A stretch of 5,571 bases of DNA from an uncultured Anaerosolibacter sp. (GTDB lineage Bacteria > Bacillota_A > Clostridia > Peptostreptococcales > Thermotaleaceae): assembly GCA_937948705.1 (NCBI GenBank), contig CALECF010000086.1:1-5571 (forward strand). The letters are read 5' to 3'. A program made the position numbers and the translations under genes. Under the pieces are notes generated by a model that was not told the origin of the DNA, did no database searches, and was given only the letters and a program-made list of their open reading frames with translations. Position 1 is the stretch's first letter. Every line of letters begins with the position of its first letter. Positions 1 to 5,571 of this stretch are shown here, piece by piece.

Positions 1-482
1 CGATCCACATATTTTCCCGCCATTTCAATCAGTCTTTCATCAGCTCCGGGAATCGCTTTTAGATGAATATATCCATTGAAATTTTCTTCCTCCCGAAGCT
101 TTCTTACCGTCTGCAACAATAACTCCATGGTATGATTAGGATGCTTATGGACAGCGGCACTTAAAAACAATCCTTCTATATAGTTCCTTCTATAAAAGTT
201 AATGGTCAGATCCACGATTTCCTGGGGCGTAAAGGCCGCTCTCGGTATATCATTAGAGGATCGGTTCACACAATAAAGGCAGTCATACACACAGTAATTT
301 GTCATGAGGATTTTTAAGAGAGAGATACATCGCCCATCCTCTGACCAACTATGGCAAATACCACTGCTGTGGGTGTTCCCGATACCTCCTTTTTTATTAC
401 TGCGATTGCTTCCACTAGAAGAACAGGAAACATCATACTTAGCAGCATCGGATAAAACTTTTAGTTTGTCTAAAACCTCCAT
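1..482 (-). CDS. Radical SAM protein, putative DNA modification/repair family (5' part, runs off left edge)
   Basis: The open frame gives 160 complete codons from ATG at 482 and continues beyond base 1, so the C-terminal part is missing. Residues 64-71 read CVYDCLYC, a CX3CX2C radical SAM motif expected to bind a 4Fe-4S cluster that cleaves S-adenosylmethionine. Further cysteines lie at 20, 43 and 52. The N-terminal stretches AAKYDVSCSSSGS (14-26), GICHSW and RCISLLKILMTNYC, followed by VNRSSNDIPRA and GYIHLKAIPGAD, match what I remember of the roughly 400-residue family TIGR03916 (rSAM_link_UDG). That family is normally encoded beside a partner with a uracil-DNA-glycosylase-like domain; the partner would lie outside this window. 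The reaction is unknown. The start is supported by GAGGTGA four bases upstream. It has its own promoter flanked by two LexA boxes, so it is not part of the transporter operon. The family call is firm; a repair role is inference. Confidence 0.9.
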   Translation of the reverse strand, partial: MEVLDKLKVLSDAAKYDVSCSSSGSNRSNKKGGIGNTHSSGICHSWSEDGRCISLLKILMTNYCVYDCLYCVNRSSNDIPRAAFTPQEIVDLTINFYRRNYIEGLFLSAAVHKHPNHTMELLLQTVRKLREEENFNGYIHLKAIPGADERLIEMAGKYVD

Positions 483-492
483 AAAATCACCT

Positions 493-506
493 CGAACATA
501 TGTTTA
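493..506 (-). promoter_or_regulatory. LexA (SOS) box, start-proximal
   Basis: The plus-strand sequence CGAACATATGTTTA matches the Bacillus-type LexA/DinR consensus CGAACRNRYGTTYC at 13 of 14 positions. The core AACATATGTT is a perfect palindrome. It lies just downstream of the predicted -10 box, at about the transcription start and running into the ribosome binding site of the radical SAM gene. Bound LexA there would block transcription. No LexA gene is in the window, so binding is inferred. Confidence 0.82.
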
Positions 507-514
507 TATAGCTT

Positions 515-543
515 ATATTACCATGGTCTCCATGTTTTTACAA
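515..543 (-). promoter_or_regulatory. Sigma-A promoter of the radical SAM gene
   Basis: On the minus strand, TTGTAA (538-543) and TAATAT (515-520) are separated by exactly 17 bp. This places the start of transcription near 508, about 26 bases before the ATG. One LexA box covers the -35 element and the other covers the start region, which fits an SOS-repressed promoter. Each hexamer is one or two mismatches from consensus. Confidence 0.68.
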
Positions 544-554
544 ACATATGTTCC
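541..554 (-). promoter_or_regulatory. LexA (SOS) box, promoter-distal
   Basis: On the minus strand this reads GGAACATATGTTTG, matching CGAACRNRYGTTYC at 12 of 14 positions and keeping the full GAAC-N4-GTTT core. It has the same AACATATGTT palindrome as the other box, with centres 48 bp apart. It overlaps the predicted -35 hexamer of the radical SAM promoter. Two near-identical sites around one promoter make chance unlikely. Confidence 0.8.
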
Positions 555-589
555 TATAATCAAACATTTTAAACCCATAAAAAAAACTT

Positions 590-622
590 AAAAAAAACAT
601 GACATTCTGCGCCATGTTTTTT
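590..622 (-). terminator. Rho-independent-type terminator of the transporter operon
   Basis: On the minus strand AAAAAACATG and CATGTTTTTT can pair, with a G-U and a C-G pair closing a seven-base loop. The 3' arm runs into eight Ts (597-590). It starts 10 bases after the permease stop codon. The stem is mostly A-T, so it may be a leaky terminator. On the plus strand the same element ends in six Ts, but no plus-strand gene leads into it. Confidence 0.62.
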
Positions 623-632
623 AATACTCACC

Positions 633-1607
633 CTATTTTTGTTTTCTGCTCTGAAACAAAACTGCGAGGATAATGATAATTCCTTTTACCAATCCTGTAA
701 GGAATGGAGGTATTTTTGCTGCAATCAGAATTCCTTCAATCATCTGCAACATAATGGCCCCCAGAAAAGTACCGACAACTTTTCCCCTGCCCCCATTCAT
801 CGCTGTTCCACCTATGGCAACCGCAGCGATGGCATCTAACTCAAAAGATGCCCCTGCATTGGGCGCTGTGATGGATGTGAGGCGAGAAGAAAGCAAAAAT
901 GCTGAGATCCCTGTTAAAAATCCAGTGATGGTAAAGCAAAGAACCTTTATACGATCCACATGAATCCCTGTCAATCTTGCCGCATTTTCATTGGACCCTA
1001 CGGCGTAAACATATCTACCAAATTTCGTATTACTCATGATAAAAGCAATAGCTGCCACAATGATGACAAAAACAATCGCCAGATTTGGAATACCAAGGAC
1101 CGTACCCGCAGCAATCATCCTGAATTTATCAACCAAATCATAGCTAACATTGAAGGGTCCACCCTGACCTAACTGAACAATAATGGAGCGATACGCACTC
1201 ATGGTTGCCAAGGTTACAATAAATGCTGCAATTTTTCCCTTTGTAACCAAAAGTCCATTCACTAACCCTAATACTGCTCCAAATACCATACAAAAAATTA
1301 ACATCACGAAGGGGCTTTGTGTGTTATTTAAGACGACTACCCCTAACCCTGCAACGAGTGCACAAGTAGAGCCTACTGAGAGATCAATTTGCCCAGATAT
1401 GATCACCAAAGTCATTCCTAAAGCAATGATGCCTTTAATCGATGCCTGAAGCATCAATGTGGATAAATTGGAATAAGTTAAGAATTGTTCATTCACGATG
1501 GCCGCGATGGCGATTAATACGATAAAGGAAAATAAGTACGTATACTCTGAGTAGAATTTCTTAAATCTTAACATTGATTCTTTTTTTAACATCGTTTCTG
1601 TATTCAT
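633..1607 (-). CDS. Sugar ABC transporter permease, RbsC/BPD_transp_2 family
   Basis: This 324-residue integral membrane protein has about the usual length for RbsC-type permeases. They form the channel of sugar importers, usually as homodimers. It begins with a charged cytoplasmic stretch (1-22), then a first membrane helix at about 23-40 and many hydrophobic segments up to the C-terminal helix at about 303-318. Family landmarks are SGQIDLSVGS (71-80), the ATPase-coupling loop GRYVYAVGSNENAARLTGI (197-215), and AIGGTAMNGGRGKVVGT (264-280). The ATG overlaps the stop of the ATPase gene in an ATGA (1604-1607), which suggests translational coupling. A GGAGGGAG Shine-Dalgarno lies just upstream, inside the ATPase gene. 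It is the last gene of the operon. The substrate cannot be read from the sequence; ribose, xylose, galactose or another monosaccharide are all possible. Confidence 0.93.
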   Translation of the reverse strand: MNTETMLKKESMLRFKKFYSEYTYLFSFIVLIAIAAIVNEQFLTYSNLSTLMLQASIKGIIALGMTLVIISGQIDLSVGSTCALVAGLGVVVLNNTQSPFVMLIFCMVFGAVLGLVNGLLVTKGKIAAFIVTLATMSAYRSIIVQLGQGGPFNVSYDLVDKFRMIAAGTVLGIPNLAIVFVIIVAAIAFIMSNTKFGRYVYAVGSNENAARLTGIHVDRIKVLCFTITGFLTGISAFLLSSRLTSITAPNAGASFELDAIAAVAIGGTAMNGGRGKVVGTFLGAIMLQMIEGILIAAKIPPFLTGLVKGIIIILAVLFQSRKQK

Positions 1608-3097
1608 CTTACTCCCTCCATATTCGAGCCGGTAGCATAATACATTACCTCCACCTCTGTCAAATCTTCCCTCGTTAATTCAGCACTGATGTTACCTTTG
1701 TACATAACAAGACATCGATCCGCTACTTTATAAATTTCAGGAAACTCTGCACTAAAAACAATAATGCTCTTTCCTTTTTTGGCCAGTTCATGAATGATTT
1801 TGTATATTTCAAACTTCGCCCCCACATCAATTCCCTGGGTAGGATTATCTAAGATATACAAATCTGAGTCCATCTCCAACCAGCGGGCAATAATCACCTT
1901 CTGCTGATTCCCACCGCTAAGTGAAGTAATGTAATCATAGGGAGTTCCCACTCGAATGGATATTGCATCTTTATTGTGGTGAAATCGTTTCACTTCATCG
2001 TTCTTATTTACAAGAAGACCACTATTATTGACGAGGCCTGCAATTGATAGATTATCTAGGATATTCATGTCTTTAATGATGGAGCGTTCTTTCCGATTCC
2101 TAGGTACCATACCAACACCAGCCTTCATGACCTGCCGAATACTATTTAAGTTTAAGGGTTTGTTGTGAAAGAGAATTTGTCCACCCGTAGTGGCCCGTGC
2201 TCCAAATAGTGCCTCGGCAAGTTCCCCTCTTCCATCCCCGTGTAGTCCAGTTATCGCCAACACTTCCCCTTTTCTAACTTCGAAGCTAATATCGGAGAAG
2301 GCAGGTGTGCAGCCTAAATGCTGTACTTGAAGAATTACTTCTCCAAAGTTATTCTCATATTGCCTTTTTTCGTCCTTAATGCTTCTTCCCACCAAGAGCT
2401 CTGTGGCTTTTTTCTCATCAATATCAGCAAAATTACCGCTTTCTATTAACTTACCATCTCGCAATACCGTATATCGATCGCAGATTTCAAACAACTCAGG
2501 CATTTTATGGGATATATATATGATGCTTACCCCTTGTTCTTTGAGACCCTTCATAATCACAAACAAATTGTCTATTTCTTTGTTCGTCAACGCCGTTGTA
2601 GGTTCATCCATGATGATAAGCTTGGACTCAAATAATAATGCCTTTGCAATTTCAACCAACTGTTTTCTGGATGTATCTAGATTCTCAACTTTTTCTTGGG
2701 AGTCAATATCAATATTCATTCGCTTAATCACAGCATCTGATCTTCTAATCATTTCCTTTTTATCCAAAAGCCCATATTTGTTTTTTAACTCTTCTCCAAG
2801 GAAAAGATTCTCATATACCTTTAAATCATTGACCAAATTTAATTCCTGGTGTATAAATCGTATTCCTAGTTCATTTGACTTACGGGTTGTCATATTTTCC
2901 TGAATCATTCCATTTAGATAAATCTCACCCGATGTAGGCGGGAAGGTTCCAGCCAGTATATTCATTAATGTTGATTTGCCAGCACCGTTTTCACCTAGCA
3001 ATCCGTGTATCTCTGAGCTGTTAACTTCTAGACAAACATCATCCAGAGCTTTTACCGCACCAAAATCTTTCGTAATGTTTTTCATTTGCAAGAACAT
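1604..3097 (-). CDS. Sugar ABC transporter ATP-binding protein, double-NBD RbsA/MglA type
   Basis: This 497-residue cytoplasmic ATPase has two fused nucleotide-binding domains, the normal size for RbsA/MglA/XylG proteins. Domain 1 has Walker A GENGAGKS (35-42), Q-loop Gln84, an unusual signature region LDTSRKQ (140-146) followed by VEIAKAL, Walker B IIMDEPT (161-167, Glu165) and switch His197. Domain 2 has a degenerate Walker A GLHGDGRGE (284-292) without the lysine, a canonical signature LSGGNQQK (393-400) and Walker B ILDNPTQG, where Asn418 replaces the catalytic Glu. Domain 1 is therefore probably the site of hydrolysis. I chose the ATG at 3097 because AGAGGA lies nine bases upstream and the family homology starts there. 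An in-frame TTG at 3130 and ATG at 3118 would add an unlikely lysine/glycine-rich tail. It overlaps the permease gene by 4 bp and follows a hairpin after the binding-protein gene. Confidence 0.94.
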   Translation of the reverse strand: MFLQMKNITKDFGAVKALDDVCLEVNSSEIHGLLGENGAGKSTLMNILAGTFPPTSGEIYLNGMIQENMTTRKSNELGIRFIHQELNLVNDLKVYENLFLGEELKNKYGLLDKKEMIRRSDAVIKRMNIDIDSQEKVENLDTSRKQLVEIAKALLFESKLIIMDEPTTALTNKEIDNLFVIMKGLKEQGVSIIYISHKMPELFEICDRYTVLRDGKLIESGNFADIDEKKATELLVGRSIKDEKRQYENNFGEVILQVQHLGCTPAFSDISFEVRKGEVLAITGLHGDGRGELAEALFGARATTGGQILFHNKPLNLNSIRQVMKAGVGMVPRNRKERSIIKDMNILDNLSIAGLVNNSGLLVNKNDEVKRFHHNKDAISIRVGTPYDYITSLSGGNQQKVIIARWLEMDSDLYILDNPTQGIDVGAKFEIYKIIHELAKKGKSIIVFSAEFPEIYKVADRCLVMYKGNISAELTREDLTEVEVMYYATGSNMEGVR

Positions 3098-3106
3098 GCT
3101 TCCACA

Positions 3107-3112
3107 TCCTCT
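3107..3112 (-). promoter_or_regulatory. Ribosome binding site deciding the ATPase start
   Basis: AGAGGA on the minus strand lies nine bases before the ATG at 3097. It overlaps the region between the two upstream in-frame candidate starts (3118 and 3130), neither of which has a comparable site. It supports the shorter 497-residue protein. It is weaker than the GGAGGGAG sites of the binding-protein and permease genes. Confidence 0.6.
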
Positions 3113-3150
3113 CTTCATTTTGATAAGCAATCTAAATTCACAATAGCTTT

Positions 3151-3186
3151 AAAAAGAGAGAACCGACCAGGAAAATCTCCTGGTCG
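3151..3186 (-). terminator. Intercistronic hairpin with T tract (partial terminator or mRNA-stabilising stem)
   Basis: CGACCAGGA (3164-3172) and TCCTGGTCG (3178-3186) form a perfect 9-bp, G/C-rich stem with a five-base loop. On the minus strand the stem is followed by GGTTCTCTCTTTTT. It starts 25 bases after the stop of the binding-protein gene and ends upstream of the ATPase ribosome binding site. The T run begins several bases after the stem, so full termination is unlikely. Partial termination, or protection of the upstream mRNA from 3' exonucleases, would both give more binding protein than ATPase and permease, as is usual in such operons. Confidence 0.7.
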
Positions 3187-3211
3187 ACTACAATCCATTG
3201 ACCATTATCGT

Positions 3212-4234
3212 TTATATTCCACTCTCATAACGGACTTTATAGATATCGGATTTGCGGAACTCTTGTTCATTGCTTAAATCTATTTCTAGTGTATCAATCA
3301 AATACAAGCCTGAAAGCTTCTCGCCGCCTAAAAGTTTAGCACCATATTCCACTGCATCTCGAACCATGGTTGGTGAAAATAAGTATGTTACTTGATCAAT
3401 ATTATTTTTTTCTTTATAAGGTTTGAAAGTATCTAAGTTCTCACGACGACCACCAACACCTGTTAATATACGAATGTCTAATTTTGCAGGTCCCTTGTAG
3501 TTTGTAATAGCGTCTAAAACACCAAGTACAACTTCATCATCGTGGGTAAAAACACCTTTTATGCTTTCTATTGTTTTTGCATCACTAGTTGTTAAGAATG
3601 TTTCCATCTGCTCTTGTGCCTTTGCTCGCTGCCAGTCAGTACTAAATTGTTGAACGACCTTTATTTTCTTATCTGCAGTCTCACTAAATCCATCAGAACG
3701 TTGCTGCGGTACTGTGGAGTTATCACCCTTGAATTCAAGTATGTTCACTTCGCCTTTTGCCAAATCTTCTGCAAAGTATTTGTTTAAGTATTTACCAGTT
3801 TCTTGACCTATGGTCACATTATCACCCATTACTTCGGCCGTTGGTTTGAAATTATTGATTAGACGATCATAGATAATTAGAGGTATACCAGCATCCATGA
3901 CTTTTTGGGCACCTGATCTAAGCTCATCCCCATTATGTGGCCATAAAACAATACAATCAACCTTTTCATTAATCAGTGTATCTAGTTGGTTATTTTGTTC
4001 AGAGGATTCTGCTGATGTTAAAAATTTGTATTCAAATCCATTTTTTTCTGCTAGCTTCTTTGTAGCATCTTCAGCATGTTTGATACTCTCTCCTAAGAAC
4101 CCGTGCGTAGCATTCGGCATAACTACCGCCAATACTTTGCTTTTTGGAGTATCTGTAACTGGGGTACTTTGTGAACATCCTGCCAACGTAAAAATCATGA
4201 TTAACGTCAAGATCAAAGCCACTAATTTTTTCAT
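3212..4234 (-). CDS. Sugar-binding lipoprotein of ABC transporter, Peripla_BP_4/RbsB-like
   Basis: This 340-residue extracytoplasmic substrate-binding protein delivers a sugar to the permease. Residues 1-20 form a lipoprotein signal: MKK, a hydrophobic core and the lipobox LAGC, with Cys20 expected to be lipidated and anchored to the outer face of the membrane. A Ser/Thr/Pro-rich linker (21-31) leads to the first fold strand VLAVVMPN (34-41). Residues that align with sugar contacts in the RbsB/XylF group are YDR (122-124), Arg179 in QQRSDGF and Asp232 in THDDEVVLG. This supports a monosaccharide ligand but does not name it. ATG 4234 was chosen because GGAGGGAG ends three bases upstream. The in-frame GTG at 4249 would lie within or before that site and spoil the signal peptide. 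It lies between the regulator and the ATPase genes, and is followed by a strong hairpin. Confidence 0.93.
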   Translation of the reverse strand: MKKLVALILTLIMIFTLAGCSQSTPVTDTPKSKVLAVVMPNATHGFLGESIKHAEDATKKLAEKNGFEYKFLTSAESSEQNNQLDTLINEKVDCIVLWPHNGDELRSGAQKVMDAGIPLIIYDRLINNFKPTAEVMGDNVTIGQETGKYLNKYFAEDLAKGEVNILEFKGDNSTVPQQRSDGFSETADKKIKVVQQFSTDWQRAKAQEQMETFLTTSDAKTIESIKGVFTHDDEVVLGVLDAITNYKGPAKLDIRILTGVGGRRENLDTFKPYKEKNNIDQVTYLFSPTMVRDAVEYGAKLLGGEKLSGLYLIDTLEIDLSNEQEFRKSDIYKVRYESGI

Positions 4235-4268
4235 AATCTCCCTCCACACTCTTAAGATTTATTTATTG

Positions 4269-4291
4269 ATAGGGCCCTCGTACTGCCCTAT
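4269..4291 (-). other. Inverted repeat in the regulator/binding-protein gap
   Basis: ATAGGGC (4269-4275) and GCCCTAT (4285-4291) are perfect inverted arms around a nine-base spacer, in the 83-base gap between the regulator stop and the binding-protein start. On the minus strand the sequence after it is CAATAAATAAATC, which has no T tract, so an intrinsic terminator is unlikely. It could be an mRNA processing or stabilising stem that separates regulator and transporter message levels, or a protein-binding site. Its centre does not resemble the operator upstream of the regulator gene. Confidence 0.5.
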
Positions 4292-4317
4292 AATACAAAT
4301 GGATATGCTACCCTTCC

Positions 4318-5307
4318 CTACCGGGTGGATTCTCTTAAAATCAGTTCATGGGGTAAAACAATACCTTTGTTAACCACCTTCATGTCCCTGATTTTCTCTA
4401 CAACAAGGTCTACGGAAACCGTTCCTAAATCGTATCTTGGCTGTGACACCGTAGAAATGGTAGGGTCATACACCCTTGTAATGGAAGCATTGTCAAAGCC
4501 TATGATTTCGATATCTTTTCCTACTGAAATACCTATACTTTTCAAATATTTAATCGCGCCGATTGCCAGTGTATCAGAAACTGTCAATATAGCTGTCGGT
4601 GGTTCAGAGAGATTCAACAACTCACGGCACATCTCCATTCCACCCTCAGGTTTGTAATTACTTTTAAAAATATATTTCGAATCAAAGGTGAGTCCTGCAT
4701 CAACAATGGCGTCTTTATAGCCTTGTTCCCGAGCTCTTTCTGAGCTTTCATAAAATGAACCACTAATCATACCGATTCGTTTGTGTCCATGGGAAATAAA
4801 ATACTTTGTTGCTGCATAGGCTGCCTTTTTATTATCAATCATTACATATGGCAATTGGGCTCCTTCGGTATACTCACAGCACTGGACAAATGGATATTTC
4901 ATCACCAAGTTGTTTAATTCCTCAGCGCTTAATGTGGAAAATAGTGATATCACGCCATCTACCTGTTTCATCTCTAAAATCTTAAGATATTTTTTCTCCG
5001 TTTTTAACTCATGATGGGTTACGCTGACCAAAACACCATATCCTAATTCACTTGCTCTTTGTTCAATCCCCTTCAGAATTTTTGCGTAAAAAGGATTTGA
5101 AAGGGTTGGCAGCATCACCAGGATCATATCACTTTTTGATTTTCTTAGATTACGACCTGCGGTATTCGGCACATAATTTTCTTCTCTTATCGTCTGTAGA
5201 ACCTTCATCCTGGATTTTTCTGCTACGCCAGGGTCCTCATTCACGACCCTTGATACTGTTGCTACGGAAACACCTGCAATCTTTGCAATATCTTTTATAG
5301 TTTTCAT
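4318..5307 (-). CDS. LacI-family transcriptional regulator of the sugar transporter operon
   Basis: This 329-residue repressor-type protein has the normal LacI/GalR length. The N-terminal helix-turn-helix spans about residues 3-23 (KDIAKIAGVSVATVSRVVN), followed by the hinge region YVPNTAGRNLRKSKS (45-59). The sugar-sensing core starts at ILVMLPTLSNPFY and carries HGHKRIGMISG (173-183) and the C-terminal landmarks IIGFDNASITRVYDPTIST (268-286). ATG 5307 is chosen because it begins directly at the helix-turn-helix and has AAGGTG seven bases upstream. Longer in-frame readings up to 5379 would start inside the promoter and operator. It is the first gene of the operon and probably binds the operator at 5332-5345, repressing itself and the transporter until the sugar or a derivative is present. 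The effector is unknown. Confidence 0.93.
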   Translation of the reverse strand: MKTIKDIAKIAGVSVATVSRVVNEDPGVAEKSRMKVLQTIREENYVPNTAGRNLRKSKSDMILVMLPTLSNPFYAKILKGIEQRASELGYGVLVSVTHHELKTEKKYLKILEMKQVDGVISLFSTLSAEELNNLVMKYPFVQCCEYTEGAQLPYVMIDNKKAAYAATKYFISHGHKRIGMISGSFYESSERAREQGYKDAIVDAGLTFDSKYIFKSNYKPEGGMEMCRELLNLSEPPTAILTVSDTLAIGAIKYLKSIGISVGKDIEIIGFDNASITRVYDPTISTVSQPRYDLGTVSVDLVVEKIRDMKVVNKGIVLPHELILRESTR

Positions 5308-5314
5308 ATGTACA

Positions 5315-5320
5315 CACCTT
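5315..5320 (-). promoter_or_regulatory. Ribosome binding site deciding the regulator start
   Basis: AAGGTG on the minus strand is seven bases before ATG 5307, which begins exactly at the LacI-type DNA-binding domain. It rules out the longer in-frame reading, which would overlap the promoter. Confidence 0.6.
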
Positions 5321-5331
5321 ATCTCTGCAAA

Positions 5332-5345
5332 TGTAATCGTTTTCA
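5332..5345 (-). promoter_or_regulatory. LacI-family operator (possible cre site) overlapping the transcription start
   Basis: TGTAATCGTTTTCA on the plus strand fits the LacI/GalR consensus TGNAANCGNTTNCA at every defined position, with the central CG at 5338-5339. The flanking A and T extend the symmetry to 16 bp. It starts six bases downstream of the -10 box, so it covers the expected start near 5344, a classic repression position. The adjacent regulator is the obvious ligand. CcpA cre sites share this consensus, so catabolite repression through the same site, instead of or in addition, cannot be excluded. Confidence 0.82.
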
Positions 5346-5350
5346 TTTTC

Positions 5351-5379
5351 ATTATAAAATCTTCCCGAAATGTTGTCAA
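5351..5379 (-). promoter_or_regulatory. Strong sigma-A promoter of the regulator/transporter operon
   Basis: On the minus strand TTGACA (5374-5379) and TATAAT (5351-5356) are both exact consensus hexamers, with the ideal 17-bp spacer. Transcription should start near 5344, giving a leader of about 37 bases. No comparable promoter is seen before the binding-protein, ATPase or permease genes, so all four genes probably depend on this one. Confidence 0.9.
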
Positions 5380-5571
5380 TATGATTTTGAATATTTAGTA
5401 AACATTTTTCTTTAAAATTTACTAGCTTTTTCATAAAATATTCTTTTTTACAAGCTAACTGTTCTATCCTTGTATTTTCAATGCATTCATCATCAAAAAC
5501 ACTTTCTTCTTATTTTCTCGTTTTAAAAAAAATATAGAACTTAGCTAAATATTCTAAATTATTATGTATTT

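Follow-up and report, generated by a model that had tools for sequence, protein, structure and literature searches.

Paired LexA-type boxes before a TIGR03916 radical SAM gene in Anaerosolibacter and recurrence of the box across Clostridia

Is a radical SAM (S-adenosylmethionine) enzyme whose role in DNA repair is suggested mainly by the name of its family controlled by the SOS response? The question is raised by a contig of an uncultured Anaerosolibacter sp. (CALECF010000086.1, positions 1 to 5,571; this whole stretch of 5,571 nucleotides is called the window). It contains the 5′ part (160 codons, positions 3..482, minus strand) of a gene of the NCBIfam family TIGR03916, preceded by two palindromes resembling LexA-binding sites. 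The reading frame leaves the window, and its product matches TIGR03916 with an E-value of 6.7e-87 over profile positions 2-158 of 415. These 160 codons score 292.3 bits over 157 profile positions, to be set against a full-length threshold of 343.5 bits for a gene that is partial here. The full-length protein of the closest relative found, Anaerosolibacter carboniphilus (locus L001; radical SAM protein 94% identical), scores 675.8 bits. The radical SAM motif CxxxCxxC is present as CVYDCLYC, and C64, C68 and C71 are invariant across 44 relatives. With a probability of about 0.92, both boxes are predicted to be LexA operators that repress the radical SAM gene, along with the partner gene for a DUF4130 protein, until DNA is damaged.

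Two boxes around one promoter

The distal box (GGAACATATGTTTG, 541..554, minus strand, 17.5 bits) overlaps the putative -35 element. The proximal box (TAAACATATGTTCG, 493..506, minus strand, 15.3 bits) lies near the expected transcription start and adjoins the ribosome binding site. Both share the core AACATATGTT, and each deviates at two positions from the palindrome CGAACATATGTTCG. Compared on the plus strand with CGAACRNNYGTTYG, which we take to be the Bacillus-type SOS consensus, the sites at 493-506 and 541-554 agree at 13/14 and 12/14 positions. An earlier inspection of the letters alone (the sequence-only reading) had reported two sites at these places, 48 bp apart and with these match counts; coordinates, spacing and counts are confirmed.

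Bit scores refer to a matrix of 111 sites found upstream of 43 of the 46 clostridial lexA genes considered. The sites were chosen at 8 or more matches out of 10 to CGAAC-N4-GTTCG, the known consensus serving as starting point. Because the matrix was built from lexA promoters only, it contains no radical SAM promoter. By this matrix the two boxes are the top two places among the 5571 bases of the window, and the third best place reaches 8.9 bits. Dinucleotide shuffling of the 200-bp upstream region (5000 shuffles) gave one site of at least 15.3 bits in two cases and two sites in none. In 300 shuffles of the whole window, one such site appeared in four and two in none. For the palindrome CGAACATATGTTCG, two or more sites at up to three mismatches were found in 4 of 200 whole-window shuffles.

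Read by eye on the gene strand, the order is distal box, -35, 17 bp, extended -10, proximal box, AGGTGA and the ATG at 482. The putative -35 (TTGTAA, 538..543, minus strand) overlaps the end of the distal box and is separated by the 17-bp spacer from a putative extended -10 (TGG-TAATAT, 515..523, minus strand), of which a similar block is kept in 11 aligned promoters. A Shine-Dalgarno-like AGGTGA (487..492, minus strand), abutted by the proximal box, contains a GGTG that is invariant in the 11 aligned promoters. This layout, judged by eye, agrees with the earlier proposal that the -35 lies under one box, and the transcription start together with the margin of the ribosome binding site under the other. 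A generic promoter scan with a threshold of 9/12 did not report the radical SAM promoter, because each hexamer matches at 4/6 positions (8/12 in total). This null result weighs against the predicted promoter, which the conservation of the -10 among the 11 aligned promoters supports.

The boxes are 48 bp apart from start to start in the window, and 48 and 49 bp apart in the closest relatives (L001 and L002), with a counterpart of the distal box near -70 in close relatives. The pair of locus L007 falls within the same 46-49 bp range, its second site being weaker (8.4 bits), and the pairs of L135, L138 and L199 are spaced at 45-50 bp. Of 130 Firmicutes locus records (the 44 nearest the query plus 86 from a class sample, some genes appearing twice), 25 contain at least two sites scoring 8 bits or higher. 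A pair placed about the start site may serve to tighten repression or to form a loop.

Recurrence across Clostridia and the link to LexA

The class sample comprises 196 genomes from the class of A. carboniphilus, 80 of them with a TIGR03916 match over the family cut-off. The loci examined number 86 from 84 genomes, of which 80 loci pass the cut-off and six do not; a split gene in G037 and short weak matches were left out. A box was counted at 10 bits or more within 200 bp upstream. Among the 80 loci whose genomes were scored as having LexA, 73 carry such a box; among the six whose genomes were scored as lacking it, one does (G106). It occurs in 1.8% of shuffles and in 1 of 80 gene interiors. 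The enrichment of boxes over shuffles upstream of clostridial homologues, which the sequence-only reading had named as its check, is therefore strongly positive. Fisher's p for the contrast between genomes with and without LexA is 1.3e-4, which is optimistic because the genomes are related. Restricted to loci over the TIGR03916 cut-off, a hand count gives 71/75 with LexA against 1/5 without. The genomes scored as lacking LexA are G083, G106, G122, G173, G179 and G053, from assemblies taken as they stand, with gaps possible. G150 and G202 were scored as having LexA from E-values, without a listed row.

The 44 Firmicutes loci closest to the query supply 253 other promoters, of which one reaches 10 bits, that of lexA in L007. 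The 253 are what is left after removal of 14 promoters overlapping the radical SAM upstream region; before removal 8 of 267 passed, seven divergent from the radical SAM gene and one at lexA. The lexA gene concerned (L007:9309-9935), with a strong box of its own, follows the radical SAM gene at a distance of ~3 kb. Boxes are retained in relatives whose upstream genes differ. In L022 the box is ~280 bp upstream, beyond the 200-bp search range.

LexA is found in both nearest genomes. The strict pattern CGAACRNNYGTTYG occurs at four places in A. carboniphilus (G001), namely at lexA, uvrB, the radical SAM gene and L228, and at three in the genome of L002 (G002), at lexA, uvrB and the radical SAM gene. 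The place in L228 (position 1501) is a strict box without evident SOS target. An asymmetric form, CGAAC-N4-GTTTG, is present in 35/46 lexA and 36/86 radical SAM upstream regions; a probable reason is that the -35 makes use of the end of this form.

Probable LexA repression and its alternatives

What is directly observed is the presence and conservation of the boxes, the fact that they co-occur with LexA, and the pairing of the two genes in relatives. LexA-type boxes at the promoter, with the same control in many relatives, make it very probable that the radical SAM gene belongs to the DNA-damage response. The earlier suggestion that SOS-type control would be evidence for such a role thus gains support, at the level of sequence, from the enrichment and the co-occurrence with LexA. 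Occupancy by LexA, induction by damage and the chemistry of the enzyme are what we infer from these observations. In undamaged cells, LexA dimers bound to both boxes would mask the -35 at the distal site and would lie over the transcription start and the margin of the ribosome binding site at the proximal one, silencing both the radical SAM gene and the DUF4130 gene that is its partner. Upon DNA damage, a RecA filament would promote self-cleavage of LexA, both sites would be emptied and the operon would be expressed. The enzyme, with its radical SAM core and a helix-hairpin-helix-like segment, would then act with the partner on damaged DNA, lesion removal or reversal being the likeliest guess for its chemistry.

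Several observations weigh against LexA control. The presence of LexA rests on the nearest genomes and not on the window's own genome. Seven of the 80 loci from LexA-bearing genomes have no 10-bit box, four of these being over the family cut-off, and only 28 of the 44 Firmicutes loci nearest the query reach 10 bits. Many misses among these 44 are in Anaerococcus, Peptoniphilus and Finegoldia. Eight Anaerococcus loci show no site above 6/10 consensus positions, and in three Anaerococcus genomes no LexA match exceeded the cut-off, the best ones spanning no more than residues 76-202 or so of the model. LexA is present in Peptoniphilus and Finegoldia, yet good boxes are missing at their radical SAM genes. 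Three of the 46 lexA upstream regions (L092, L096 and L097, from Finegoldia and Peptoniphilus) gave no matrix site, and an altered LexA operator in these two genera may explain the poor boxes at both lexA and the radical SAM gene. The genome G106, scored as lacking LexA, keeps a perfect box before its radical SAM gene (L194, L226); the genome holds no other copy of the strict box, as would fit an assembly gap or a relic. Seven of 12 genomes searched have no strict match, including the LexA-bearing G003. The strict pattern is no commoner than a reversed control pattern (4 versus 6 places in G001, 3 versus 3 in G002); what distinguishes the sites is therefore where they lie, which genes they precede and that they are conserved, and not how many there are.

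Could the palindromes serve another regulator with a similar half-site, for example a local repressor? The core AACATATGTT is indeed a simple AT-rich palindrome, and some loci from LexA-bearing genomes have no box. Such a regulator is nevertheless very improbable, since a matrix trained on lexA promoters alone detects the boxes, box presence tracks LexA and strict boxes stand at lexA and uvrB in the two nearest genomes. Moreover, the sole regulator gene in the window is of the LacI type and sits at the far end of the sugar transporter genes. Even harder to credit are AT-rich palindromes arising by chance, or a conserved promoter element without any regulator. Both cores do lie within AT-rich promoter sequence, but none of the 5000 upstream shuffles produced two sites, the single box among the 253 other promoters is at lexA, and the boxes persist where the upstream genes have changed. 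A question of another order concerns the division of labour between the boxes. It is possible, though rather unlikely, that LexA binds and the distal box alone sets repression, the proximal box being redundant; this would be a variant of LexA control and is not exclusive of it. Most loci have a single box, pairs being confined to the 25 of 130 records mentioned above, which speaks for redundancy. Against it, both closest relatives retain two boxes, spaced at 48 and 49 bp, and several other loci have their highest-scoring box at about -23 to -33.

The gene pair, precedents and a second operator

The partner gene, which the window stops short of, encodes a stand-alone DUF4130/TIGR03915 protein in relatives. 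The sequence-only reading had traced the repair label of the family to a neighbour resembling uracil-DNA glycosylase (UDG). No such neighbour is seen in the relatives: among 36 partners scanned with Pfam, every one has DUF4130 and none matches a UDG family. Some further support for a role on DNA comes from a weak helix-hairpin-helix segment in a relative's radical SAM protein. The predicted fold of the A. carboniphilus partner (L001:6308-7042) resembles DHH-superfamily proteins (PAP phosphatase, RecJ and Cdc45), and a conserved N-terminal YDGSFxGLLT stands where the first DHH motif could be. Profile comparison of the DUF4130 partner with the DHH superfamily gave no support.

Outside Firmicutes, the 36 other loci nearest the query are Bacteroidota by title, except one bin (L044), and they are not independent because many are close relatives. 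The 400 bp preceding the orthologue contain two to four GGA-N5-TCC sites in 29 of the 36, frequently around positions -80, -57, -39 and -16. Two or more such sites occur in 0.3% of shuffles and at least one in 7.9%, and a site is present in 1/36 gene interiors. The motif CTAA-N5-TTAG was found upstream of the orthologue in none of the 36 loci. A repressor-type gene (helix-turn-helix plus peptidase S24) is divergent and adjacent in 27 of them (e.g. L037:4104-4865), including L077, which is only 31% identical to the query. In these 27 loci a likely SOS regulator and its radical SAM target share one intergenic region. According to the accessible part of one report, S24-type proteins were gel-shifted on GGA-N5-TCC-type motifs (PMC8565304). 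Clostridia have Bacillus-type boxes and Bacteroidota have GGA-N5-TCC; therefore, SOS-type control appears under two unrelated repressors.

COG4277 is presumably the same family as TIGR03916. The SOS link is not new in kind: it is a correct rediscovery in a new organism, extended to class level. In Clostridium acetobutylicum, LexA control of the CAC3343-CAC3344 operon, which includes the orthologue of the radical SAM gene, was predicted in 2013, the site being inferred by footprinting and expression data and RegPrecise listing no orthologue (PMC3828012, accessible text). This operon is, like the window gene, a predicted LexA target, and the account, in the same text, covers one species without paired boxes or a comparison with genomes lacking LexA (PMC3828012). 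Within the open-licence literature, the locus tags CAC3343/CAC3344 were found in PMC3828012 alone, and no paper naming TIGR03916 was found. The UDG/COG4277 (COG1573-COG4277) operon of Bacteroidetes was predicted in 2021 to be under SOS control by a non-canonical LexA (PMC8565304, accessible text). As described there, it resembles the Bacteroidota loci in its SOS-type upstream operator with the same GGA-N5-TCC motif and differs from the window locus in both repressor and operator. It is also described with a UDG, whereas the partners scanned here show only DUF4130. Relative to these published accounts, as far as their accessible text goes, the loss of the box where LexA is missing is an added control. 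A further likeness is to SplB (spore photoproduct lyase), a radical SAM DNA repair protein that is SOS-linked in several bacteria (PMC8565304 and PMC3765255, accessible text). SplB differs in being another family by name; it is not among the 50 matches listed in a fold comparison, which excludes nothing.

The role of TIGR03916 in DNA modification or repair is putative by name, and LexA-type control throughout a class makes the label a testable claim, to which an independent SOS-type operator in a second phylum adds. The condition indicated for seeking an activity and a phenotype is DNA damage without oxygen. It is tempting, if decidedly speculative, to see in the radical SAM gene and DUF4130 a module central to the damage response, which retained or recovered its SOS control as one LexA system gave way to another, with Bacillus-type boxes in Clostridia and GGA-N5-TCC arrays next to a regulator gene of the phage-repressor type in Bacteroidota. 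The partner would then be a degenerate DHH-fold DNA protein, RecJ- or Cdc45-like, and the pair an oxygen-independent lesion-processing machine of a hitherto unassayed type.

In the window, the radical SAM gene is preceded on the same strand by sugar ATP-binding cassette (ABC) transporter genes (permease, ATPase and binding protein) and a LacI-type regulator gene (633-5304). The two groups are parted by a terminator-like hairpin (592..622, minus strand) with a 13-pair stem, three G-C pairs and a T-rich tail. Two terminator-like sites were found in 380-760, against a shuffle mean of 0.1. In the stretches seen of L001 and L229, other genes occupy the place of the sugar transporter genes.
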